Below, one piece after another: positions 2,505-45,877 of a stretch of DNA of 64,000 bases. Below the pieces are notes generated by a model that searched no databases, was not told the origin of the DNA, and saw nothing but the letters and a program-made list of their open reading frames with translations. Origin of the DNA: a virus; the IMG/VR virus record IMGVR_UViG_3300037153_000221, positions 1 through 64,000 of that record. The stretch is one strand, 5' to 3'. Within the stretch, counting starts at the first letter, position 1. Each line of letters starts with the position of its first letter. The position numbers and the translations under genes are program-made.

Positions 2505-5146
2505 TGACAGGCGTCCCCAACGGCTTCCGTCAGCGCTGGCAGTCCGGACGCCACTTCGGGCCGTGGCGCCCGGTCATGAAGGTCTACGTGCGCGAGATCT
2601 ACATGGACAAGGAGTTCTGGCCCGGCTGGGCCGCTCCACTGGTCGGTGCCAAGGTCCCCGGCGAGAGCAAGGACAAGCCGTGGCGCGCGAAGTACACTGC
2701 GCGCTCTGATTGGGTGGAGCTTCCCGGCGTGCGCAACTGCCAGATCCAGCAGGATCTCGGCCAGAACGGGATGATGACGTGTACGCTCCAGATCGACAAC
2801 GTGATCTACCCCGAGGCGAATAATCTCGGCTACCTCTACCACCTGATTGAAGTCGGAGCGTTGTCGCCGTGGCGCGGCTACGCGCCGCCTGGACGGCCGA
2901 ACCCCATCGCCGTGGCAAAGAACGAGTGGTACGAGAAGCTGTTGCACAACAGCCAGGTCAAGGTGCTCATGGGCTACGGCGAGGATTTCCTGGTGCCCGT
3001 CTTCACCGGCATGGTGGACGATGTGGACCCGTCAGCCGGTGGGGGCGCCACGCTCCAGGTGACGATCCGCGACTTCGGCCAGCTTCTCGTAGACCAGCAC
3101 GTCATGGGTCTCAACACCGGCCCGAAGATCGGCGAGCCGTGCATCTTCTCGCCCGTCCAGCCCGACAAGCTCTGGGGCGTCGGCGTCGAGAAGGGCTACC
3201 ACGCCGAGGCGTCCAGCGTACGCGATGGGCACCCGGCGCGGTTCATCATCGACCGCGACAAGAATACGGACTGGATCTCGGCCGACCGCTCGCGCGCGGA
3301 TGACACCGAGTGGGTCCAGTGCCGCCTGCCGCGTGGCCGCTACGAGAGCTTCTGGATCAACCCGCGCTACCCGAACATGGAGGCGTGGGTGGGCGTGTAT
3401 GCGCGCGACCGCAACCTGGGCGGCGAACCGTGCACGCTGGATGACATGTCGATACCGAACGGCTGGGTGAGCATCCCCGCCGACGAGGGCGGCGGCACCA
3501 CCCCCGGCTCGCTCGACGGCGGCTGGCCGTACCTCAAGCACTACAAGGTGCTGCCACCGGACGGCCAGTTCCTACGCCTGGACTGCAAGCTCGTCGTAGG
3601 CGACGACAGCATCCTGCGCGTCGGCTTCCGCAACCTGTACAAGATCGGCGGCCAGGAACGGTACCGCGCGGGCGCCACGGGCTTCACCGGGGTCAAGCGT
3701 GTAAACCCCAACCCGCCCCGCTACCGGCGCGTCGGCTTCAACGCCGAGGCGTCCAGCGAACGTGACGGGCACCCGGCCAAGCTCGTGCTGGACACCGGCA
3801 AGGACACACGCTGGACTTCGCACGATCACACCATCCCGAACTTCACCGAGTACGTCGAGATTCATCTGCCGCAGGCTCGCTACACGGGCTTTCGCATCAA
3901 CGTGCCGTCGCCGAACGTCACCATGTACATCTCCGTTTTCGCGCGTAACCGGCGCCGGAAGAAGAAGGGCGGCGGTTACGAGTACCGGCCGTCGCAGATG
4001 GACGGAGTGGACATCCCCGAGGGCTTCATCAACATCCCGGAGTCACAGGGCGGCGGGCAGGTGCCGGGTGGTCACGGCGGTCATGCCTACATGCGCCGCA
4101 TCGAGAACGTCGGCCCGCACCCGAAGGGTGTCCAGGAGGCGTTCAAGATCCACCCCGATGGCAAAGCGCTGGATCTAGGCTACAACTCCGTTCTGCGCGT
4201 TAGCTTCCGCGAGCTACACCAGACCAGCCCCGGCACCTTCAGGGTCTCCGTGCGCACGCTGAAGGCCAACACCAAGAGCGGCGTGCCGCAGCCGCCCAAG
4301 CCGCCGAAGGAACCCAAGCGCATCGAAGTCAACGACATCTCCGACATCGTGCGCGTGGTGCTGCGCTGGGCGGGCTTTGAGGAGTGGGAGATCGAGAACA
4401 CGGGCGCCAAGCTCAGCGGCGACTGGGTGTTCAACCGCCAGACCTTCTTCATCGACATCATCAAGAAGGTCCAGGAGGTGACGGGCTTCGTGTTCTTCAT
4501 GAAGCCACCGACGAACAACGACCGCTCCATCGGCGTGCCGGTGTTCCGTTCGTCCTGGCTGCTGCGTGATGACATCCCCGACTTGGCGCTTGTCACGCAG
4601 GACGATCTTCTGACTGGAGTTCAGGGAAAGATCACGGACGAACCGCTGGCGTCCATCATCTACGTGCGCGGCGCCCCCGATCAGAAGGGCAAGACCTACC
4701 TCGCCGACCGCACCAAGCGACTCCAGGCCAAGTACGTGCCGACCTGGTGGCGCAAGCACAACCGCCTCGGCGGCGTGCTGCGCCACGTCGTGCACACCGA
4801 GGACCGCCTGACCGACCAGAAGTCCGTGGACGTGTACGCGCGCCTGTGGGCGCTGCGGATGGCGCTGGAGGGCGCGACGGCGACTGCCGCCGTGCCCGGC
4901 ACGCCCGAGTTCGACCTGGACGACCAGATCGGCCTGGCCGATAACATCGCGGGCCTGACCACGCGGCTGTACGTCGCCCAGCGAAACCTGGAGTTCACGA
5001 CAGGCGAGAACGGCAGTTGGAAGCTAACGCTCGGCGGCGCGCTGCTGGACACGCCGGACATCGTGGAGACCAAGGCGGACCTTCGGGCGATCCTGCCGCC
5101 GTCGCAGGCGCTCAGCTACATCGGCGACTACTACGAGATCAACTGA
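2504..5146 (+). CDS. tail hub / tail-tip protein with duplicated discoidin-like domain
   Basis: 880 residues from the ATG at 2504, chosen over an in-frame upstream ATG at 2489 because it overlaps the previous stop (TGATG). The ends look like a phage tail hub (gp27-like) protein. The middle holds two copies of one domain, about residues 228-390 and 409-585. Each begins with a related motif (AEASSVRDGHPA in copy 1, AEASSERDGHPA in copy 2) followed by an Asp-rich 'D..kdT.W.S' segment, which resembles F5/8 type C (discoidin, galactose-binding-like) domains. A carbohydrate-binding role on the tail tip is inferred. Confidence 0.65.
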   Translation: MTGVPNGFRQRWQSGRHFGPWRPVMKVYVREIYMDKEFWPGWAAPLVGAKVPGESKDKPWRAKYTARSDWVELPGVRNCQIQQDLGQNGMMTCTLQIDNVIYPEANNLGYLYHLIEVGALSPWRGYAPPGRPNPIAVAKNEWYEKLLHNSQVKVLMGYGEDFLVPVFTGMVDDVDPSAGGGATLQVTIRDFGQLLVDQHVMGLNTGPKIGEPCIFSPVQPDKLWGVGVEKGYHAEASSVRDGHPARFIIDRDKNTDWISADRSRADDTEWVQCRLPRGRYESFWINPRYPNMEAWVGVYARDRNLGGEPCTLDDMSIPNGWVSIPADEGGGTTPGSLDGGWPYLKHYKVLPPDGQFLRLDCKLVVGDDSILRVGFRNLYKIGGQERYRAGATGFTGVKRVNPNPPRYRRVGFNAEASSERDGHPAKLVLDTGKDTRWTSHDHTIPNFTEYVEIHLPQARYTGFRINVPSPNVTMYISVFARNRRRKKKGGGYEYRPSQMDGVDIPEGFINIPESQGGGQVPGGHGGHAYMRRIENVGPHPKGVQEAFKIHPDGKALDLGYNSVLRVSFRELHQTSPGTFRVSVRTLKANTKSGVPQPPKPPKEPKRIEVNDISDIVRVVLRWAGFEEWEIENTGAKLSGDWVFNRQTFFIDIIKKVQEVTGFVFFMKPPTNNDRSIGVPVFRSSWLLRDDIPDLALVTQDDLLTGVQGKITDEPLASIIYVRGAPDQKGKTYLADRTKRLQAKYVPTWWRKHNRLGGVLRHVVHTEDRLTDQKSVDVYARLWALRMALEGATATAAVPGTPEFDLDDQIGLADNIAGLTTRLYVAQRNLEFTTGENGSWKLTLGGALLDTPDIVETKADLRAILPPSQALSYIGDYYEIN

Positions 5147-19410: not shown

Positions 19411-20010
19411 ATGATGCTGGGAGCCGACGACATCGGCCCTTACGAGGGGCTGATCTTCTCCACCGCTGCGCGCTACGCCGCGTACTTTGACGACGACGTG
19501 GAGGACATCCAGCAGGTACTGCGGCTGAAGGTCTGGCGCGCGCTGAAGGCATACGATCCACGGCGCTCCAGTCAACCAGTACAGAAGTTCGTATTCTCCT
19601 GTCTGCGCAACCAGGTCAAGGACTTACTGAAGCAGCAGTTCCGGCTCAACCGCGCGCGCCGGTCCGCCTCGCCGGTCTACCTGGACGACGAGGCCGGACT
19701 GACACCCGACTTCTTCGAGCGCAAGTACCTCGTGGTGGAGGAAGAAGCCGTCTTCGCCGTCGTGGACGACGAGGACTGCGAACTCCCGTCCACACTTACG
19801 ACGTTCGAGGTGACGGTTGTACACCTGCTTCTGCTGGAGTACAACCAGACCGAGGCGGCGCGGATACTCGACGTACCGCGCGGGCGGATACGCGCCGCGC
19901 ACACCTCGGTCAAGGAGAAAATGGCGGACTGGCGTCCGACGCTACCGCTGCCCGCCATGAACGGCAACGGGCACCACGAGCGCGCGACGCTGGACCGCAT
20001 CCTCTCCTAA
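19411..20010 (+). CDS. sigma-70 family (ECF-like) RNA polymerase sigma factor
   Basis: 199 residues. An N-terminal region 2-like helix bundle (YEGLIFSTAARYAAYFDDDV ... IQQVLRLKVWRALKAYD ... KFVFSCLRNQVKDLLKQQ) is followed by an acidic linker. A region 4-like HTH (FEVTVVHLLLLEYNQTEAARI.. VPRGRIRAAHTSVKEKM) covers about residues 130-175. It may direct host polymerase to phage promoters. Its stop codon overlaps that of the convergent minus-strand gene (CTAA at 20007-20010). Confidence 0.7.
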   Translation: MMLGADDIGPYEGLIFSTAARYAAYFDDDVEDIQQVLRLKVWRALKAYDPRRSSQPVQKFVFSCLRNQVKDLLKQQFRLNRARRSASPVYLDDEAGLTPDFFERKYLVVEEEAVFAVVDDEDCELPSTLTTFEVTVVHLLLLEYNQTEAARILDVPRGRIRAAHTSVKEKMADWRPTLPLPAMNGNGHHERATLDRILS

Positions 20011-22291: not shown

Positions 22292-22470
22292 CGGACCACC
22301 ATCGCGCCTTCCTCGAAACGCCAGTCCCGTTCTTGGGCCAGCGCCTCGGCATCCTCGCGGCTCCGATGTCCATAGGTAGCGAGCACCGTGCGGTCGTGTC
22401 CCCACAGCAGAACGCAGGCGCCGATGGCCTCGTTCTCCTGGGTGGGATGCCAGACGAGAATGTCAGTCAT
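22288..22470 (-). CDS. hypothetical protein (60 aa)
   Basis: ATG overlaps the upstream gene by 8 nt and the stop overlaps the next ATG. A small alpha/beta protein; the phrase TVLATYGHRSREDAEALAQ suggests a strand followed by a helix. No family recognised. Confidence 0.5.
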   Translation of the reverse strand: MTDILVWHPTQENEAIGACVLLWGHDRTVLATYGHRSREDAEALAQERDWRFEEGAMVVR

Positions 22471-23170
22471 CGTCCACCTCCTCTAGCCGGATACTGGCGC
22501 CGTCCGGTAGGTGGATCGTGTCGCCGGGTTGCATGTCCGCCGCCCTGGCGAGCGCATCACCCCACGAGTCGGGCGCGGCGTCCACGGGCGTGGACGAGAG
22601 ACCGCCCGCCTGCGTGGGCGTGAGCAAGCCAGCGGACATGTCCTCCTCGGCGTCTGGCTTGTCGTTGCGTCCCTCGGCCACGGGAAGTCCGGGCTGGAAC
22701 GGACGCTGGCGACCCTTGTGCTCGCCGCGCTTGCGACCGTCGTTGAACATCCGGACCTGGGTATCGCTGGACAGCAGTTGCTCGGTAAAGCCGAACTCGA
22801 TGTAGTAGTCCTCCGGGAACACCCACAGGTGATATTCGTTGGACGTGTCCACCAAGCGCGACTCGGCCGGGTAGATCTCGACCGCCTCGCGCTCGGGACC
22901 CGCGATCTCGTTCTTGATCGCCTGGTAGTGCCGCCAGTCCGTCATCGGGTGGCGGTCGTGGCGCTTCATGGAGAGGTGCATGAACCCCTCGCGCCCCTCG
23001 TCAGGCCCGCCCATGTACGTGACGGTGACCTGGTAGAGATCGTTGAACCACACCTCGTCGGCGGGTCGGGAGCCGACCTGGACCCTGAGCGCGTCCAGCA
23101 TCGGGTTCGGGGTGCCCTGTCGCATGGGCGTCCACTCGTGGCGTAGGTTCCTACTGCTGGAACGGGCCAT
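22463..23170 (-). CDS. DUF7694-like conserved phage protein
   Basis: 235 residues. The central part (HDRHPMTDWRHYQAIKNEI ... EIYPAESRLVDTSNEYHLWV) matches a domain found in many phages, which I believe is DUF7694. Its function is unknown. The C-terminal third is polar and low complexity. The protein encoded at 47446-47844 shows a more distant version of the same pattern (P.W..., N.HP..LHL). Confidence 0.6.
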   Translation of the reverse strand: MARSSSRNLRHEWTPMRQGTPNPMLDALRVQVGSRPADEVWFNDLYQVTVTYMGGPDEGREGFMHLSMKRHDRHPMTDWRHYQAIKNEIAGPEREAVEIYPAESRLVDTSNEYHLWVFPEDYYIEFGFTEQLLSSDTQVRMFNDGRKRGEHKGRQRPFQPGLPVAEGRNDKPDAEEDMSAGLLTPTQAGGLSSTPVDAAPDSWGDALARAADMQPGDTIHLPDGASIRLEEVDDD

Positions 23171-32483: not shown

Positions 32484-34178
32484 TCAGGTGATGTGCGTGG
32501 CGAGTTGGGCGGTCGCCTCGCTCGGATCTTCGAGGTTGAAGTCGTGCACGTCCACGACGTTCTCCCCGCAGTAGTCGCGCAGGTACTGGAACGACCCGCC
32601 GATGCCGACGCCGTGGAACCTGACGCCCTTCGCATCGAGTCCGTCGCGCAGCATCTTGTCCTCGGGACCGAAGCTCGCCTGGCCGTCGCCCACGAGCACG
32701 ATGTCCGCCTTGCGGAACTCGTTGGCGGTCTCCATGATCTTCTTCGCAAGCGCGACGCCCTGGAGGGGCACCGTGCCGCCACCGAAGAAGTGGCTCGCCA
32801 TGTCCACGATGTCCTGCGCGTTCAGTTCGCGCTTGGCCGGGAACAGGAAGTGGTGGACTTCGCCACTGGACCCGAACCCGACGTACGCGAAGTCGCGGTC
32901 CTCGCGTCGGCAGATGTTCAGCAGGCAGCACGCGATGGCCTTGCACCACACGTTGCGCTGTCCGCCCATCGAACCCGACTCGTCGCCGACCAGCACGATG
33001 GGACCGCGCCCGGCGTGCTCCTCGCCCACGGTGTCGTACACCATGAGTTCGCCGGACAGGTAGCGCATGTAGAAGTCGTCCTCGGTGTCCGGGTCCGCGA
33101 GCACGCCCAGTTCGGCCGGGAGGATGCGCCGTAGCTCATCTCCCAACTTGAGATCCACGATCTCGTCCTGACCGCCGACGACGCGCTTGGCACGCTCGAA
33201 GCGCATGTGCTGATCGAGTCGGCCGTACAGTTCGGCCACCGCCTTCAGCGTGGGATTGTTCATCCACATGTCGGCGATGGTCAGCGCCTGCTCGGGCGAC
33301 TCGTAACGCGGCTCGCCCTTGTCCAGACCGGCACCGAAGCTCGGCATGTTGCCCGCGCTCTCGGCCGCAGCCTTCGCCTCCTTGACCGCGCTCACGACCG
33401 CATCGTGAGCGGCCTTCGAGAACGGCTTGGGGATGTTCGCAGCGACCGCCTGCGCCTGCGCGATGGCGCCGCGCTTGTCCAGGACGCCCTGGCGAATGGC
33501 GTCCACAAGCTCCTGCGGGATCGGCTGTCCGTTGGCGTTCAGTTCGCGCGCCTCCTGACGCAGCGACTCCAGTTCGTTGATCGCGCCGTCCGCCGTGTCG
33601 CGCGCCTGCTCGAACTCCTCGGCCATGCGAGCCTGTTCGACTAGCTCGTCACCGAGAATGGACTTCAGCGCGCCGATGGCGGCCATGGTGGCGACAGCGG
33701 CCGTGCTCGGACTGTCGCGGGTGATGTTGCGCGACTGCGCGTGATCGTCCTCGGCCGTCATCTTCGAGAGGATCTTCGCGTGATGCGCGACGCCGGGGTC
33801 CACCTCGTCGGGCGAGAGGATCTGCGGCTCGCGTGCGTGGTGGTAGGAGTAGAACACATCTCGTGTCAACTCCTCCCACGCATCGTACGCGGGAGCGTTC
33901 TCGCGCGCCGCCTTCGCAGCACGCGCCTGCTCCTGGTAGGACTTGATCTCGTCCGGACTGGCCGTGGTGAAGTCCGGCGCGTCCGGTTCGGGCACGTCGG
34001 GCGCGATGTGCGGCGCGTCCTCGACGGCCATGCGCCTGAAGCGCGGGGAGTCGTCGGTGTAGTTGCCGAAGACCATCTTGTCCACGGAATCGTGCTCCAC
34101 GGACTGGCGCGGCATCTGCACGGGCGGGGTGTCACCACGCCGGTTGAACAGGCGGCGGATGATGTCGTCGTAACCCAC
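32484..34178 (-). CDS. VWA domain protein (MoxR-associated)
   Basis: 564 residues from GTG at 34178, chosen because AAGGAAGGAG lies just upstream; a longer reading from 34271 crosses the leader hairpins. The N-terminal 390 residues are helical, with coiled coil. The VWA domain (about 390-564) has a complete MIDAS: DESGSMG near residue 399, the GGGTVPLQG Thr, and VLVGDGQASF. Such proteins partner with MoxR ATPases, as in RavA-ViaA, and the MoxR gene is directly upstream. Target is unknown. Confidence 0.75.
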   Translation of the reverse strand: MGYDDIIRRLFNRRGDTPPVQMPRQSVEHDSVDKMVFGNYTDDSPRFRRMAVEDAPHIAPDVPEPDAPDFTTASPDEIKSYQEQARAAKAARENAPAYDAWEELTRDVFYSYHHAREPQILSPDEVDPGVAHHAKILSKMTAEDDHAQSRNITRDSPSTAAVATMAAIGALKSILGDELVEQARMAEEFEQARDTADGAINELESLRQEARELNANGQPIPQELVDAIRQGVLDKRGAIAQAQAVAANIPKPFSKAAHDAVVSAVKEAKAAAESAGNMPSFGAGLDKGEPRYESPEQALTIADMWMNNPTLKAVAELYGRLDQHMRFERAKRVVGGQDEIVDLKLGDELRRILPAELGVLADPDTEDDFYMRYLSGELMVYDTVGEEHAGRGPIVLVGDESGSMGGQRNVWCKAIACCLLNICRREDRDFAYVGFGSSGEVHHFLFPAKRELNAQDIVDMASHFFGGGTVPLQGVALAKKIMETANEFRKADIVLVGDGQASFGPEDKMLRDGLDAKGVRFHGVGIGGSFQYLRDYCGENVVDVHDFNLEDPSEATAQLATHIT

Positions 34179-34216
34179 GGTACTCCTTCCTTGTTCGTGA
34201 TTACAGTTCGTTCGTA

Positions 34217-34299
34217 AGCGGTGGTCGGCGCCCGCATGTCCATCCATGTCCGTCACACGGACGCCGACCACCGCTCACGCACAGGATGCGTGAGCGGTG
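34217..34299 (-). promoter_or_regulatory. two competing hairpins in the VWA leader
   Basis: Between MoxR and VWA, 34269-34280 pairs with 34288-34299 (12 bp, perfect) and 34217-34230 pairs with 34262-34275 (14 bp, perfect). The two pairings share 34269-34275, so they exclude each other. A small third stem (GTCCG/CGGAC, 34248-34262) sits inside. This resembles an attenuator or riboswitch-type switch, but no U-run follows. Confidence 0.45.
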
Positions 34300-34316
34300 T
34301 CCCTGGAGGGAAGTGT

Positions 34317-35567
34317 TCACTCCTCCTCGCCTGCGATGGTCTTCTCGACCCAGTTGTGCGCCTGGGTGATCTCGGACAGCACCGCCTCCAGGTCGGCGGT
34401 GTCGTGACCCTGCGAGCCGCCTTCGCGGATCTGGTCGTTCGCGTCGCGCTTGAGGCGCCGGAGGTCGCGCATGACCTTGAAGCCGCGCTCCATCTGCTCG
34501 TCGGTCGGCTCGCCGCCGTTCGCCTGGATGTCGCCCTTGACGGCATCCAGTTCGTTGAGCACCGGATCGAGAGCTTCGCGCATCCGCGACGCCTTGCGGG
34601 CGAACACGTTGGCGAACTCCATGACGATCTTGTGCGCCGACTCGCGGTGGTCCGGGTGGTTCCACGCCATGTGCTGGCAGACGATCATGTCGTCGGTGGA
34701 CACCGACCCTTCGCCTCGCGTCCACGCACGCGCCTTCATGGCGCGCAGCATCTGACCGATGCGACGCTGGCTCGGCGGGTGACCGGCGCTCGCCCAGCGC
34801 TCCTGCGCGATCTGCATGGACTCGATGACGGCATCGGGGATGATGACCGACATCGCCTCCATGCGCGCCTGACGGATCTCGTCCAGCGAGATGTTCGGAG
34901 CGTTCGACATGTCCACCGTGGACGCCGACGCCTGGTACTCGTCCTGGATGCGCATGACATCCTTGCGACCTTCGGGCGAGCGCACCGGCTGCACCACGAG
35001 CGAGATGCCCCAGCGGTCACGGAACGGTTGAAGATCCTCGCGGTCGGGAAGCTCGTTCGAGCTACCGAAGATGCAGAGGAGTTGCGACAGGTCCAGCGTC
35101 GCGCCGCCGACCTTCAGCTTGCGCTGCGCCATCACGTCCAGCAGCGCGTTCGCCATGGTGGGCGAGCACTTGAAGATCTCGTCCAGGTAGCCGAGAACGG
35201 CAGTCGGGAGAAAGCCGTCCGTGAGGCGTTCGATGCGCCCCTCCTTCATGGCCGGGAGCGAGCGCGGACCCAGCACGTCATCCGCGCTGGACTCCTTGAA
35301 GACCATGTAGTTGAACAGGTCGGACTTGCTCGCGCCCGAGATGCAGCGGAGCATCAGTTCGATGGCCCACGTCTTGCCCACGCCCGGATCGCCGAGGAAC
35401 AGCGGATCGACGCCGGACACGAGCGAGTTGCCGAGAAGTTCGATCATGTCTCGGCGCTCGATGTTGTACTGCGCGAGCCAGCCGTCCGGCGCGAAGATCT
35501 CGCGGTGCTTGACCACGAGCGCGTCCGTGACGGTGCCACGCTTGACTACGGGATCGGCGATTGCCAC
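34317..35567 (-). CDS. MoxR-type AAA+ ATPase
   Basis: 416 residues from GTG with GGAGGG upstream. Walker A GDPGVGKT at 59-66, Walker B LGYLDE ending at Glu130, sensor 1 FGSSNE near 171 and a candidate arginine finger (RDRWG) near 183-185. The helical C-terminal half (about 230-416) is typical of MoxR/RavA proteins. With the VWA gene downstream it forms a MoxR-VWA pair, a chaperone-like or conflict-system module. The 446-residue gene just upstream may be the third part. Confidence 0.75.
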   Translation of the reverse strand: MAIADPVVKRGTVTDALVVKHREIFAPDGWLAQYNIERRDMIELLGNSLVSGVDPLFLGDPGVGKTWAIELMLRCISGASKSDLFNYMVFKESSADDVLGPRSLPAMKEGRIERLTDGFLPTAVLGYLDEIFKCSPTMANALLDVMAQRKLKVGGATLDLSQLLCIFGSSNELPDREDLQPFRDRWGISLVVQPVRSPEGRKDVMRIQDEYQASASTVDMSNAPNISLDEIRQARMEAMSVIIPDAVIESMQIAQERWASAGHPPSQRRIGQMLRAMKARAWTRGEGSVSTDDMIVCQHMAWNHPDHRESAHKIVMEFANVFARKASRMREALDPVLNELDAVKGDIQANGGEPTDEQMERGFKVMRDLRRLKRDANDQIREGGSQGHDTADLEAVLSEITQAHNWVEKTIAGEEE

Positions 35568-38457: not shown

Positions 38458-38485
38458 CGCCCGAAGGCGGGGGGGCCTAAGCCCC
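38458..38485 (-). terminator. double hairpin terminator of the 38477 gene
   Basis: On the minus strand GGGGC-TTAG-GCCCC overlaps the stop codon, then CGCC-TTCG-GGCG and TTCTTTGG follow. A plausible weak intrinsic terminator. Confidence 0.4.
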
Positions 38486-38806
38486 ACCCGCCTGCTTGGC
38501 GATGCTCTCCTGCGCGGCCTTGACCGCCTTGGCGAGCGCGTCCAGCTTGCCGGTAGCGGCGAACGCTCCGGCGATGTCGGCGGCCGTGAACACCTTGCCG
38601 CCCGCGATGGCCGAGCCGACCGCGTACTCCGGGACCGCGATCTGGTTCACGCCCACCTGATGGATCAGGTAGGTGTCGTCCGGATCGCCCGCGCGGACAC
38701 CCACGCCCACGCGCTCACCGATGTCGGCGTTGAGCGTGAGCGTGCGGGAGTCGTCCAGCACGTAACGAGCGCGGCTCTTTGCCGCGCCATTGGTGGCGAG
38801 TGCCAT
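38477..38806 (-). CDS. hypothetical protein at the divergent edge (109 aa)
   Basis: 109 residues, GGAGG 9 nt before ATG. The first part is beta-rich (ARYVLDDSRTLTLNADIGER), the last third an Ala/Lys helix. It is the first minus-strand gene left of the repeat region and has its own terminator, so it is a single-gene unit. It may act early or bind the repeats; unknown. Confidence 0.55.
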   Translation of the reverse strand: MALATNGAAKSRARYVLDDSRTLTLNADIGERVGVGVRAGDPDDTYLIHQVGVNQIAVPEYAVGSAIAGGKVFTAADIAGAFAATGKLDALAKAVKAAQESIAKQAGGA

Positions 38807-38897
38807 GATTGCGTACCTCCAGGGTGCGCGTAGGATTCACACGAGCACAGGCGCCCGTTCGAGCGCGTGCACTTGCACTTGCATTGGAGACACGGAG

Positions 38898-38930
38898 CAG
38901 CCGCGCCGATGTGTGACATCGGCGCGGCTG
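38898..38930. repeat. 15-bp perfect hairpin
   Basis: CAGCCGCGCCGATGT - GTG - ACATCGGCGCGGCTG. It follows directly a copy of the GGAGACACGGAG element. A second, similar hairpin (with one bulged A) lies at 38960-38989 after the next copy. Confidence 0.85.
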
Positions 38931-39029
38931 CGCCGCATCCTGCACTGGAGACACGGAGTCGGCGCGCCGATGTGTGACACGGCGCGCCGGACGTGAGTCC
39001 AGCGTGAGAGTCGGTCTCCCGGTCTCACG

Positions 39030-39093
39030 GGAGACACGGAGCGGAGACCCCCCGATGTGACGTCACACCCTGGACGGTCCGCTCCGTGTCTCC
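39030..39093. repeat. 16-bp perfect inverted repeat
   Basis: GGAGACACGGAGCGGA at 39030-39045 pairs with its exact inverse at 39078-39093 across a 32-nt spacer. It is the centre of the left-to-right inverted symmetry of the region. Confidence 0.85.
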
Positions 39094-39230
39094 AGTGCAG
39101 GAAGCTGGAACGCTGGACGGTCCGACTAGGCGTCACACCCTGGACGGTCCGCTCCGTGTCTCCAGTGCAGGAACGCTGGACGGTCCGATGTGTCACACAT
39201 TGGACGGTCCGCTCCGTGTCTCCAGTGCAG
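39061..39230. repeat. three direct repeats of about 40 nt
   Basis: Copies at 39061-39102, 39131-39173 and 39191-39230 share TGGACGGTCC, GCTCCGTGTC and TCCAGTGCAG blocks in the same order. Spacers of 28 and 17-18 nt also carry GGACGGTCC or relatives. Copies 1 and 2 are identical. Confidence 0.9.
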
Positions 39231-39438
39231 CACGCTGGACGCTCCGTGAGAAACCCGGACCCTACCCGCCGATACCGGCGACCGACTGACCGGACTGACT
39301 AGCTCACGGCGCGTCCAGCGCCATGGCCCTGGAGCACCCTGGACAAACGTCCGACTACAGTTGGACGCTAGGATCTCCGATAATCGTCGTGAGCGCGCAC
39401 CCGCGCGCCGAACCCACCGACACACTGGAGACCCCCCA

Positions 39439-40416
39439 ATGTCACTCAAGCTCTACACCGCCGCTGATCGGCGCCGCATGAATCTCGTCACTGCTGACGA
39501 CATCTTGAAGTCCACCCGTGCCGCCGCAAAGCTCGGCCTACAGGGCGAGCAGTGGAGCGCGGAGGATCGCGCGGAGTGCGCGGCTCACCTCGTCACCCTG
39601 GTTATGGGGCGCGCCACGCTGGACGCCGAAACCGTCCGCACTCCGGCGCACGGGAACCTGTACCCCGCGCGCCTGATCGGCATGGACTTTCTCGTCAAGC
39701 GTGCGGGCGACTGGCGCCGCGCGCGTGAGGCGCAGATTGCGCGCGATGCGGCGGACGCTAACGAGCGCGGCGGCATGGCCGTGCACGGGAGCACTACCGG
39801 CGATAACGGCGACGCAAACAACCTCACCCCGTGGGGCGCGCGCATCCGCGCGGTGGAGATGCTCCAGAACGCGGGCATCATCGGCGCAACGATGGACGCG
39901 CCCGCGCCGATGTGGTCGCTTGCCTACGGCGCCGCGCGCGGCGCCGCCGGTATCGAATCGCGCGAGGTTGCGGAAGAACTGGAGTTGACGTTTGACACCT
40001 ATCGCGCGCACCTCAGCCGCGCGGCTAAGACGCTCCGCGCGTGCGGCGGATGGGACGCATGGCTGGACGCGCTGCTCATGGAAGGCATCGACTGGAGCGC
40101 GCCGGGCGAGTACGTGCACGAGCGCGCGGAGGACATCGCCTCCCGCACCGCGCGGGCAAACGCGCGAGATGCGGCCGTGAGCGTGCGGACCGTCAAGCCG
40201 CGCACCATCGGCAAGCGCGCAAGCGCCGGAGCCGCCTGGAGCCGCGCGCGAGTCTCGCCCGCCTTCCGCGTGCGGACCGTCATCGACCCGCTACCCGCGC
40301 GCACGCACGACCGACTCCGAAAGGCGTCCGACATGCGGCGCAAGCGCGCGGCGGCGGTCACTCCGGCCGAACGGCGGCAGGCGCGCCTAGCGGCTGGACT
40401 CCCGGTCGAGTCCTAA
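39439..40416 (+). CDS. DNA-binding-like protein next to the repeat region (325 aa)
   Basis: ATG at 39439 follows GGAG by 8 nt; a longer reading upstream would overlap the promoter. Residues about 165-200 read like a sigma region 4/HTH (IESREVAEELELTFDTYRAH). Several Arg-rich stretches, especially the C terminus, fit DNA contact. It uses GCG alanine codons more than its neighbours. Being the first gene beside the repeats, it is the natural candidate for the protein that binds them. Confidence 0.55.
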   Translation: MSLKLYTAADRRRMNLVTADDILKSTRAAAKLGLQGEQWSAEDRAECAAHLVTLVMGRATLDAETVRTPAHGNLYPARLIGMDFLVKRAGDWRRAREAQIARDAADANERGGMAVHGSTTGDNGDANNLTPWGARIRAVEMLQNAGIIGATMDAPAPMWSLAYGAARGAAGIESREVAEELELTFDTYRAHLSRAAKTLRACGGWDAWLDALLMEGIDWSAPGEYVHERAEDIASRTARANARDAAVSVRTVKPRTIGKRASAGAAWSRARVSPAFRVRTVIDPLPARTHDRLRKASDMRRKRAAAVTPAERRQARLAAGLPVES

Positions 40417-40434
40417 ACGGACAACCCCCCGGTT

Positions 40435-40459
40435 GCGCCGGAGCTTTCCGCTCCGGCGC
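40435..40459 (+). terminator. hairpin after the 39439 gene
   Basis: Perfect 9-bp stem GCGCCGGAG / CTCCGGCGC with a 7-nt loop, 18 nt after the stop. C-rich tail, no U-run, so termination may need Rho. Confidence 0.45.
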
Positions 40460-40773
40460 CCGCCCCCCACATGGCTTCCGCTCTCTCGCCAGCCCTGAAA
40501 AAAACCCCTGCAAATGGACCGAACTCGCGCTCGTCCAATGTGCAACTCAAGTTCAGCTTTGCACGTTTGGACGGGGCAGATTCAACCCGAAACCGACTGG
40601 ACCGGGGGCAGTCCACGCCTACTGTGCAGGACGGGTACGGCGGACCCCTCGAATTGGGTCCGGTCAGCACGGAAAGCCCCTGCAAATCCCCAGGCTGGAT
40701 ACCGCTGGAGGAATCTCAGCGGTCAATAAGACCCCCTCCCCTACCCAGCCGGGGTGGAGTCCCGGCGCGGTGG

Positions 40774-40779
40774 TAGGGT
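40774..40779 (+). promoter_or_regulatory. leaderless-type -10 box
   Basis: TAGGGT six bases before the ATG at 40786. No Shine-Dalgarno is present. Confidence 0.4.
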
Positions 40780-40785
40780 CCAGGG

Positions 40786-40911
40786 ATGGCGTATGTGCTC
40801 GCGGCGGTGTGCGTGCTGGTGGTGCTCTGGCACGTCTTCCTCGTACCCCCGGACTGGCCGGAGGAGGATGGACCGCTCGCGGAGATCTACAACCTGGACG
40901 ACTACCGTTGA
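40786..40911 (+). CDS. small membrane protein (41 aa)
   Basis: ATG to TGA with an N-terminal transmembrane helix (MAYVLAAVCVLVVLWHVFLV) and an acidic tail. Its TGA overlaps the next ATG (TGATG). A TAGGGT box six bases before the ATG suggests a leaderless transcript. Confidence 0.55.
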   Translation: MAYVLAAVCVLVVLWHVFLVPPDWPEEDGPLAEIYNLDDYR

Positions 40912-41286
40912 TGCCGAGATACGAGCCGATCCCTGAACTAGAGTCCGCACGTTTGGAGTCCCAGGCGGCACGCAGGTGGTTCAACCTGCTGGACGAACTG
41001 GACTGGGTGGCGTACACGTTCGACCCCGTGTACGGACCGACCAAGGACTTCAACTTCGACTACGCGGCCGGGAAGGGCGCCAGGGTCATCGCCGAAGTGC
41101 TCGCCCACCCGCGAGGCCACGAACTCGCGCAGCCGAGGCAGTACCCGTGTCCACGATGTTGGGGGACGGGAAAGCCTGGAGTCCTCGGACAGCACGGACG
41201 ACGGCTGGTGGGACTGCCCGACCTGTCAGGGCACCGGCAAGCTCGCCGACCGGCGCAAACCCCAAACTGGAGTCGTGAACTCGTGA
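40911..41286 (+). pseudogene. DnaJ-type zinc protein split by an apparent +1 frameshift
   Basis: Frame 1 from ATG 40911 gives MPRYEPIPELE... up to CPRCWGTGK. The matching second zinc half (WWDCPTCQGTGKLADRRKPQ) is in the next frame and ends at TGA 41286, whose GTGA overlap with the following gene fits normal coupling. Reading through needs one base skipped near 41175-41176 (AAAGCCTGG). An assembly error, a real mutation or programmed frameshifting could explain it. Without the shift the protein would lose the second CxxC. Confidence 0.5.
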
Positions 41287-41489
41287 CCGCACCCGACACT
41301 CACAAGTCGTCCACCATCACCGACCATCCCTTCACCCCGAGGACCGAGGCGACGCTGGCGCTCCCGATGTACCACGGCTTCGTCACCGTGGACCCCGAGC
41401 ATCGCAAGCGCCTGCCGCCCAATCCATACCTCTGCGGCCACCCCGGCTGCAACCTGGCCGAGAGCGCGCACGAGACCACCACGAACTGA
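41283..41489 (+). CDS. hypothetical protein (68 aa)
   Basis: GTG start in a GTGA overlap with the shifted frame's stop. It has a C-terminal CGHPGCNLAESAH segment with Cys and His that may bind zinc. No family recognised. Confidence 0.5.
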   Translation: MTAPDTHKSSTITDHPFTPRTEATLALPMYHGFVTVDPEHRKRLPPNPYLCGHPGCNLAESAHETTTN

Positions 41490-42343
41490 TAGCCTCACCA
41501 GGTCCGTCGCGGGCGCCTATACCGCGAGGTGAAGGGTCGGTCCGGCCGGGACAAGGGCCAGCGCAACCGTGCACGGCGGCGCAAGGTACTCCCCGGCTGG
41601 GGCAACAGATGCCATGGCAACGCGGCTGATCTGCCCCCGTTCCCGCGACGGACTTCCTCACTTATACCTTGTCAAGTCCCGTCGCCTCCCCGGACGACCG
41701 AAAGTCCAACGGTAATCCAGGCGTAGGCGCCACCGGCTCCCCCACCCAGCCGCAGTTCAGGGGTTTCCACACGGCGGAACGCTGGACCGCTATGGTCAGA
41801 CATGGGACGGTAAGCGTCCAGGGGGGCGAATTGTCACCGGGAGGACACCTTCTGCCCGGAAATCGCAAACACCGGAAGTTAGTGGCGCACGGACGGTCCG
41901 GCCCGTGCTACAACGCTTCAGGCCGTCAGGGAAGACGGCTCGCCAGCGTCCTGACCCCCAGACGGCGCTGGCCTTCGAGAGAGCACAACGGGGGCGGCAC
42001 GCGACCAGCCTCCCCGCGTCGCGGCGCCGCCCTCGAAGTGTGCCGTCCGTGCCCGGCGCTAGCAGCCGGTCGTCGCGGACCCCCCGGAGTCCAAAAGTAC
42101 CCCGCGCGCGCGTTGGCCCACGACGCCAGTCCGCAAATAGACCACAGCGCGCCAGGCCCGTCAGATGTGCTACGGTCCGCGCGAGTTCACGATCTGGTCG
42201 CCTCGCCACCCGGCTCGCCGGGCGCCCTGGCGGCGGACACGAACTCTGAGCGACGGGGGCGGGCGAGCTTCGACGCCACGCCCGCCCCCCGAGCCTCCCC
42301 ACTGGTGACCCGACGCCGCCACGGAGAGACACGAGGGGGAGAT

Positions 42344-42382
42344 CGGGTGGGCGGCCCATCCCGCCGTGGCGCCGCCCACCCG
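42344..42382. repeat. 11-bp inverted repeat
   Basis: CGGGTGGGCGG and its exact inverse flank 17 nt. It lies inside the noncoding region. Confidence 0.7.
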
Positions 42383-42520
42383 AACGTCCAGTTCCGGCCA
42401 TGCTCTGGGCGTGATAGCGTTCCGCGCGTGCGGGCGGACGCGGGTCGAAGTCGCGGCCCGTCCGCACACCCCTCGTTCCGCTCCGACGCCAATACCGGCT
42501 GGGACGCGGAGCACCCCCGA

Positions 42521-42594
42521 CCGCCCCTCCACTCCACCTGGACTCCTGCTCAAGACACGGCCGGGGAACAGGCCGGGCCGAAGTGGAGGGGCGG
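42521..42594. repeat. 12-bp inverted repeat upstream of the 42632 gene
   Basis: CCGCCCCTCCAC at 42521-42532 pairs with GTGGAGGGGCGG at 42583-42594. It ends 37 nt before the next start codon and may be a terminator or a leader structure. Confidence 0.6.
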
Positions 42595-42631
42595 AAGGCT
42601 TCACAAACGAAGTGTCCACTTGGAGGTGGAG

Positions 42632-42946: not shown

Positions 42947-43137
42947 CACGGCGAGAGAAGGACATCGTGCGCTACTCGCTCGCCTACCTGGCCACAGGTG
43001 ACGGGCGCAAGGCCCGCAGCCACACCGCCACGAACCTGCCGCCCGAGACCCGGCGCGAGGTGCGCAAGATCACCGACAAGATGCGCCCGATGGTGGTCGC
43101 CCGCGTCCGTTCGGTCTTCGGCACCAGGGGGCGCTGA
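42943..43137 (+). CDS. small basic protein (64 aa)
   Basis: ATG overlaps the previous stop (ATGA). Rich in Arg and Lys with helical pattern; probably contacts nucleic acid. No family recognised. Confidence 0.5.
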   Translation: MTRREKDIVRYSLAYLATGDGRKARSHTATNLPPETRREVRKITDKMRPMVVARVRSVFGTRGR

Positions 43138-44563: not shown

Positions 44564-45877
44564 ATGGCCGTCACCCCACAGTCGCTGAACAGGCATACGA
44601 AAGTCCTCCGCAACGCTGGGCTGCCAGACGACGCCATCGGCGTCCTGCTCAGCATGTCGCGCGCGGATGTCCACAACGTCACCGAGGACCCGAACTACCC
44701 GGTCCCGCCGTGCATGAGCAACAACGCCGTCACGCGCTGCATCGACCCCAGTGGCGGCGGCGGGGGCGGCACCCAGGGACCAGAAGGTCCGCAAGGGCCG
44801 GAGGGTCCGGCCGGGCCTGCCGGTCCACAGGGTCCGGAGGGGCCTCCGGGTCCGCAGGGCCTGAAGGGCGACACCGGAGCGACCGGCTCCTCGGGCGCGC
44901 AAGGGCCGAAGGGCGACACCGGGGCCAAAGGTGTGGACGGCAGTCCGGGCGTAGCGGGCGCGAAGGGCGATCCCGGACCGCAGGGCGCGCTCGGCCCGCA
45001 GGGTGATCCGGGTCCGCAGGGCGCGCAGGGTCTTCAGGGCGTCCCCGGCGCCAAGGGTGACAAGGGTGACAAGGGTGACACCGGCGCCCAAGGCCCAAAG
45101 GGTGACACCGGACCGCAAGGTCCCGGCAAGGCCGGGCAGCCGCTGGTGTTCGAGTTCAACGCGGTGTCAGCCCTCAAGAGCGCGCCGGGTCCGGGCGAGG
45201 TGTGCATCAACGGCGCCTGGAACACGGTGGACACAATCTACCTGAGTGGACAGGATGCGGACGGCAACAGCATCGCTGACATCTTCAGGATGGGCTACAT
45301 GGGCGGCGTTGCCACGATCCAGCAGATCGGCACGACCAACCTGTGGAGGCAGTCCACAGCCATCGTGTATGTCAAGGCGGACGGCCATGTGGAGTTGGTC
45401 GGCCTGCCGTACCCGATGTACGCCGACACCGCCCTTCCTAACGCCCGCGTGCGGGTGACGCTCCTGCCGATGGTGCCGCTCCCGGTTGGTGGCGCCTACA
45501 ACGACGTGCTCACGCGCGGCGAGACCGAGGAGGAACTGTCATGGCGGACGCTGAAGTTCCAGATCGGGCAGTCCTTCACAGTCCCCGGCGCCGTGAGCGC
45601 GGCGACGCTGCCGGTGATCTACGTGCCGGTGACGTTCCCGCAGGCAGTGAGGCTGGTAGGCGTGCGAGCGGCGCTCCAGTCCGGGACCAGTGTCGTGGCC
45701 CAGATGCAGCGCAACGGCTCGAATCTCGGCTCCCCGATCACCGTGACGCCGACAGCGGCCACGACGGCGTTCAGCCAGGCGCTCTCGAATAACGACCGCC
45801 TCGGCGTGGTGCTCTCGGCGCCGACCGGCTCTCCGGTCGGCCTGTCGCTCACAGCGATCCTGGAGCACTCGGTCTAG
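44564..45877 (+). CDS. collagen-like fibre protein
   Basis: 437 residues. A short N-terminal region is followed by a Gly-X-Y repeat of about 120 residues (about 70-190; [18 protein letters not shown] and similar). A C-terminal domain of about 240 residues, beta-rich, follows. Phage collagen-like stretches form trimeric rods, so this is probably a fibre or head decoration. It is far from the tail module and has its own probable leaderless promoter (TAGATT seven bases before ATG). Confidence 0.7.

Follow-up and report, generated by a model that had tools for sequence, protein, structure and literature searches.

A Repeat-Rich Gap between Two Opposed Gene Blocks

The window analyzed here, a stretch of 64,000 nucleotides, covers part of the 67,589-bp record of an uncultured phage (IMGVR_UViG_3300037153_000221). 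Gene calling divides this part of the genome into a leftward block, which runs from 38,806 down to 20,007 (genes 58 to 23), and a rightward block that begins at 39,439. The leftward block encodes an integrase, a clamp-loader-like ATPase, and a MoxR ATPase with a ViaA-like partner, and the rightward arm carries lysis genes followed by the large terminase. The GC content and distant matches hint at an actinobacterial host. Before the leftward block lie genes for an exonuclease, a DnaD-like loader or initiator, and a DnaB helicase (12.0–16.9 kb), together with gene 22 (19411–20010, plus strand), which encodes an ECF-type sigma factor of 199 amino acids. The gap between the blocks is flanked by gene 58 (38477–38806, minus strand), the first gene of the leftward block, homologs of which occupy the same place in the relatives G001, G002, and G016, and by gene 59 (39439–40416, plus strand). 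A preliminary description of this DNA had placed a noncoding repeat region between diverging arms at this point, and the gene calls bear out that placement.

Other features of the window and of related records are noted here in their own right. The MoxR-type AAA ATPase and the ViaA-like von Willebrand protein (32484–35567) form a RavA-ViaA-like pair that is kept in all close relatives, and a DUF7694-domain protein beside the integrase (22463–23125) is also kept in relatives. A stretch of about 2.2 kb that follows gene 59 (40417–42631) is almost without confidently called genes and contains repeated CCCCTGCAAAT near 40,490–40,720. Two collagen-like tail-fibre genes were seen, one in the window (44564–45877) and one at L007:3551–4588. 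Finally, record L086 represents a near-identical phage and extends past the end of the present record.

Six Directional Bipartite Units

The gap contains six near-identical, directional, bipartite elements, three in each direction, with the form GTCACA-N17-CGTGTCTCC. In the alignment of the copies, the spacer measures 17 bp in all six and the orientation is outward throughout. The block patterns were first picked by eye and counted afterwards, such that the block boundaries, and not the spacing, carry some choice. The three minus-strand units point at the leftward gene block, that is, at gene 58: L1 (38886–38917, with GTCACA at 38912–38917 and CGTGTCTCC at 38886–38894), L2 (38947–38978), and L3 (39030–39061). 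The three plus-strand units, R1 (39062–39093), R2 (39132–39163), and R3 (39192–39223), point at gene 59 and resemble tandem duplicates of 60–70 bp. L3 directly abuts R1 and points the opposite way, and their GTCACA blocks together make the palindrome TGTGACGTCACA. The distance from L1 to the start of gene 58 is about 80 bp, and that from R3 to gene 59 is about 215 bp.

Several counts show that these repeats are a distinctive property of the gap. In repeated 11-mers, the 400-bp segment at 38851 exceeds every other segment of the 64-kb window, with 178 pairs, whereas 1000 shuffles of the region gave at most 8. The sequence GGAGACACGGAG has exactly six matches in the 67.6-kb record, at 38886, 38947, and 39030 on the plus strand and at 39082–39093, 39152–39163, and 39212–39223 on the minus strand, and none outside the gap. 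No other good match to the unit was found elsewhere in the genome, and a search for the exact unit in other viral contigs returned just single copies, which are probably due to chance. The density of the repeats and the three copies each way that the preliminary description reported are thus real. Its account of the element itself needs revision on two points: the third left copy, which it called partial, is a full unit that adjoins the first right copy in the opposite orientation, and the repeated box that it took for the element, although correctly located in every copy, is the proximal half of a larger unit to which the GTCACA block 17 bp away also belongs.

The same description offered a replication origin, a partition site, and a control region without ranking them. 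If the region were the phage's replication origin, the repeats would be iterons for an initiator, and the iterated and inverted repeats, the strong hairpins, and the diverging arms on both sides are all features that such an origin could have. We nevertheless consider this improbable. The cumulative GC-skew, which had been proposed as a check on an origin, reaches its minimum at 43,051 and not at 39,060. There is a turn in A-T skew at 39,248, but it falls where gene direction switches. The mean AT content of the gap (0.339) equals that of the genome (0.341), and its richest 60-bp segment reaches 0.45 as compared with 0.53 elsewhere. The genes for the DnaD-like initiator or loader and for DnaB, at 13.9–16.9 kb, are 22–25 kb distant. 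The gap therefore lacks the skew turn, the AT-rich unwinding element, and the adjacent initiator gene of an iteron origin, and its outward-facing units match the architecture of promoters instead. The integrase encoded by the phage, and the lack of a ParA or ParB match among the proteins scanned, make a partition site unlikely.

Palindromes and Hairpins around the Units

A second layer of symmetric sequence is interleaved with the units. Five GGACGGTCC palindromes (39071, 39114, 39141, 39177, and 39201) lie within 39067–39246, in the spacer of every right-hand unit and between units, and a single GGACGCTCC at 39236 belongs to the same set of candidate operators. The five palindromes of the preliminary description are likewise recovered: TGGACGGTCCG has exactly five copies in the window, all of them in the gap, and one additional copy carries a single mismatch. 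The hairpin and the inverted repeat that it listed are also present. The former is a perfect palindrome of 15–16 bp at 38893–38938 whose tip is formed by the -35-like block of L1 (RNA fold -42 kcal/mol), and the latter consists of 18 nt at 39233–39250 and 39303–39320 that are 94% complementary. Weaker palindromes akin to that of L1 surround L2 (38950–38992) and R3 (39172–39216). Both the GGACGGTCC sites and these hairpins, which lie around the -35-like blocks, may serve as operators.

The palindromes of L1, L2, and R3 pair through different stem sequences, with z-scores of -8.5, -4.3, and -4.6, respectively. Such retention of pairing with differing stems is what would be seen if the hairpins worked as RNA, in the leaders of the two diverging transcripts, to steer termination or translation, and if folding had shaped the repeats. 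We regard this as highly improbable, since G001, G002, and G016 retain the bipartite units yet carry back-to-back dyads in place of hairpins, and the region has no match among the known RNA families of Rfam. A search of the region for tRNAs also found none.

Equivalent Arrays in Related Phages

Relatives were found through the MoxR, terminase, and gene 59 proteins, as records with the same gene order. Divergent, outward-facing elements are present in the equivalent gap of four of them: G001, G002, G016, and G017. The first three keep the 17-bp spacing of the window and differ in their letters, which read GTAACA-N17-CATGGA in G001, GTAACC-N17-ACTGTACC in G002, and GTAAGG-N17-ACTGTCCC in G016. 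Each has a back-to-back outward pair, to which G002 adds a third copy, and the -35-like blocks of the pair are separated by exactly 20 bp in all three phages. An outward pair of such quality is expected by chance about 0.007 times per 600-bp gap. In G001 and G016, as in the window, the units are confined to the gap.

Two relatives depart from this pattern. In G003 the element is AGAAC-N~16-CCATACTG, with exactly three copies in the genome, all in promoter-like placement and orientation: one upstream of the gene 58 equivalent, one upstream of gene 50, and one just past the gene 59 equivalent. A promoter-like TGAGAACGG-N-CCCATACTG in G003 (L120:477–506, 3577–3606, and 4981–5010) was separately recorded in its sole three copies, each preceding a transcription unit. 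In G017, the most distant relative, the outward array is 2+2 and its unit is shorter, GGTAACGG-N6-GACTAT[CG]. In G004 an equivalent array was not found, and the contig stops near that place. Cultured phages yielded neither nucleotide relatives nor relatives of gene 59, and a scan of genome contigs with the gene 59 family returned no relative.

The occurrence of units in the same gap with other letters indicates, on comparison of these genomes, that the array is a conserved feature of the gap and that its sequence is quick to change. The preliminary description had made conservation among relatives a test of the elements, and it is the architecture that is conserved and not the exact sequence. 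Of the three functions that it had proposed, the control region is supported by the divergent elements in four relatives and by the copies at promoter distance from genes in G003.

A Candidate Promoter Array for an ECF-Type Sigma Factor

We think it likely, on balance, that the region is a divergent transcription control region with six promoters for an ECF-type sigma factor, most likely the product of gene 22. The two blocks, 17 bp apart, form a directional element aimed at the neighboring gene, and each of the phages also encodes an ECF-type sigma factor; an alternative-sigma promoter is the reading that suits this combination best. The spacer falls within the 15–19 bp typical of promoters in all six units of the window and in G001, G002, and G016, and fails to do so in G017. 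The units also point at genes from promoter distance, as in L1, in the G003 copies 5' of gene starts, and in R3. An ECF-type sigma gene is present in all seven phages (the window, G001–G004, G016, and G017). In the window this is gene 22, which may be the cognate reader of the units; its product scores above the Pfam cut-off for Sigma70_r2 and matches sigma regions 2 and 4 alone, with region 4 ending near residue 164–172. FliA/sigma-28-like promoters (GCCGATAA) were considered and rejected, as their core occurs at chance frequency (4 seen vs. 4.3 expected).

We propose that the array would control the transcription of both the leftward block (genes 58 to 23, 38.8–20.0 kb) and the rightward block starting at gene 59. 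Each promoter would comprise the -35-like GTCACA, exactly 17 bp, and the -10-like CGTGTCTCC, such that three would fire leftward and three rightward. The multiplied units probably boost promoter strength or co-ordinate both arms after the phage sigma factor is made. The GGACGGTCC sites and the palindromes with a -35-like block at the tip would be likely operators for a second protein, the gene 59 product or another, which may tune or block the array.

Several observations argue against a promoter array. The main contrary fact is the length of the four outward units of G017, which falls short of a normal sigma promoter. In addition, one sigma factor usually serves several promoters, and the window has no unit copies outside the gap. 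Lastly, gene 59 has a promoter candidate of its own (TACAG-N18-GATAAT, 39354–39384, plus strand) that is nearer to it than R3 is.

Gene 59 as a Candidate Local Regulator

In another reading, the units are bipartite operators bound by a regulator encoded nearby, the gene 59 protein being the most likely one, that governs both arms via ordinary nearby promoters. The helical protein encoded by gene 59 diverges rapidly (21–30% identity between relatives) and may contain a helix-turn-helix near residues 171–201; the gene adjoins the units, and both diverge fast between relatives. The restriction of the units to the gap in three phages is consistent with a local regulator. The length of the G017 unit does not suit a sigma promoter and would better suit a two-headed protein, with the gene 59 product as the obvious candidate. 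Ordinary promoters are plausibly at hand: besides the proximal candidate in the window, TAAC-N16/18-GATAA is present in G002 and G017 at the matching position, and the G016 counterpart near gene 59 is TTGACA-N17-TAGCTT. We judge this reading to be possible but unlikely. The units are directional and always aimed at the next gene, the G003 copies are at promoter distance from starts, the unit sequences resemble known sigma-factor promoters, and the gene 59 protein has no significant family or fold match. As a separate observation, the promoter-like TAAC/TACA-N16-18-GATAA lies just 5' of gene 59 in three phages (window 39354–39384; L111:14981–15010; L130:1797, minus strand).

A more speculative and rather doubtful proposal is that gene 59 and its relatives represent a new regulator family, DNA-binding and two-headed (possibly far-diverged sigma factors), that co-evolves with outward bipartite sites in the same gap and whose sites have been multiplied to three each way in the window. 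That gene 59 encodes a recognizable sigma factor was rejected. This idea arose by eye and from one sub-threshold match; a profile comparison with gene 22 was unsupportive, and neither a PDB sequence search nor a fold search of a low-confidence model supported it.

Comparison with Known Systems

The lambda OL and OR regions are divergent operator-promoter regions in which the operators are palindromic repressor sites. The two sets of three repeats between diverging arms recall this arrangement; the window units differ in being directional and bipartite. The SAS and ESAS elements of cluster K mycobacteriophages are short repeats and imperfect inverted repeats upstream of genes, and the 13-bp SAS (GGGATAGGAGCCC) is tied to the translation starts of many genes (PMC3203893). 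Our repeats share the phage-borne combination of short repeats with imperfect inverted repeats but, unlike a 13-bp repeat at many translation starts, they are gathered in a single gap at a distance from start codons.

Closer parallels to the units are found among sigma-factor promoters. The late promoters of Salmonella phage 7-11, which have been mapped experimentally, read GTAAtg-(16)-aCTA and are recognized by the phage sigma factor SaPh711_gp47; there are eight, scattered over the late genes (PMC8948821). The units of the relatives similarly combine a GTAA-type block, a 16–17-bp spacer, and an ACTA/ACTG-type block in phages that encode their own sigma factor, and GTAACC-N17-ACTG of G002 comes close to the 7-11 sequence. 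Unlike in 7-11, the units here are packed as outward arrays in one gap, and the letters in the window are GTCACA and CGTGTCTCC. ECF41 sigma factors use promoters of the form TGTCACA-n16(+/-1)-CGTC (PMC3426412), and L1, L2, and R3 read TGTCACA-N17-CGTG. In contrast, the units of the relatives carry GTAAC or GAAC, and the gene 22 product is apparently not long enough to include the C-terminal domain that is fused in ECF41 factors; it shows no such regulatory extension.

If the promoter-array reading is true, the gap would be a regulatory hub, the first control region to be recognized in this group of uncultured tailed phages. The arrays of 1+1, 1+2, 2+2, and 3+3 units would then form a natural series in which changes of the sites could be followed together with those of their phage sigma factor or regulator.
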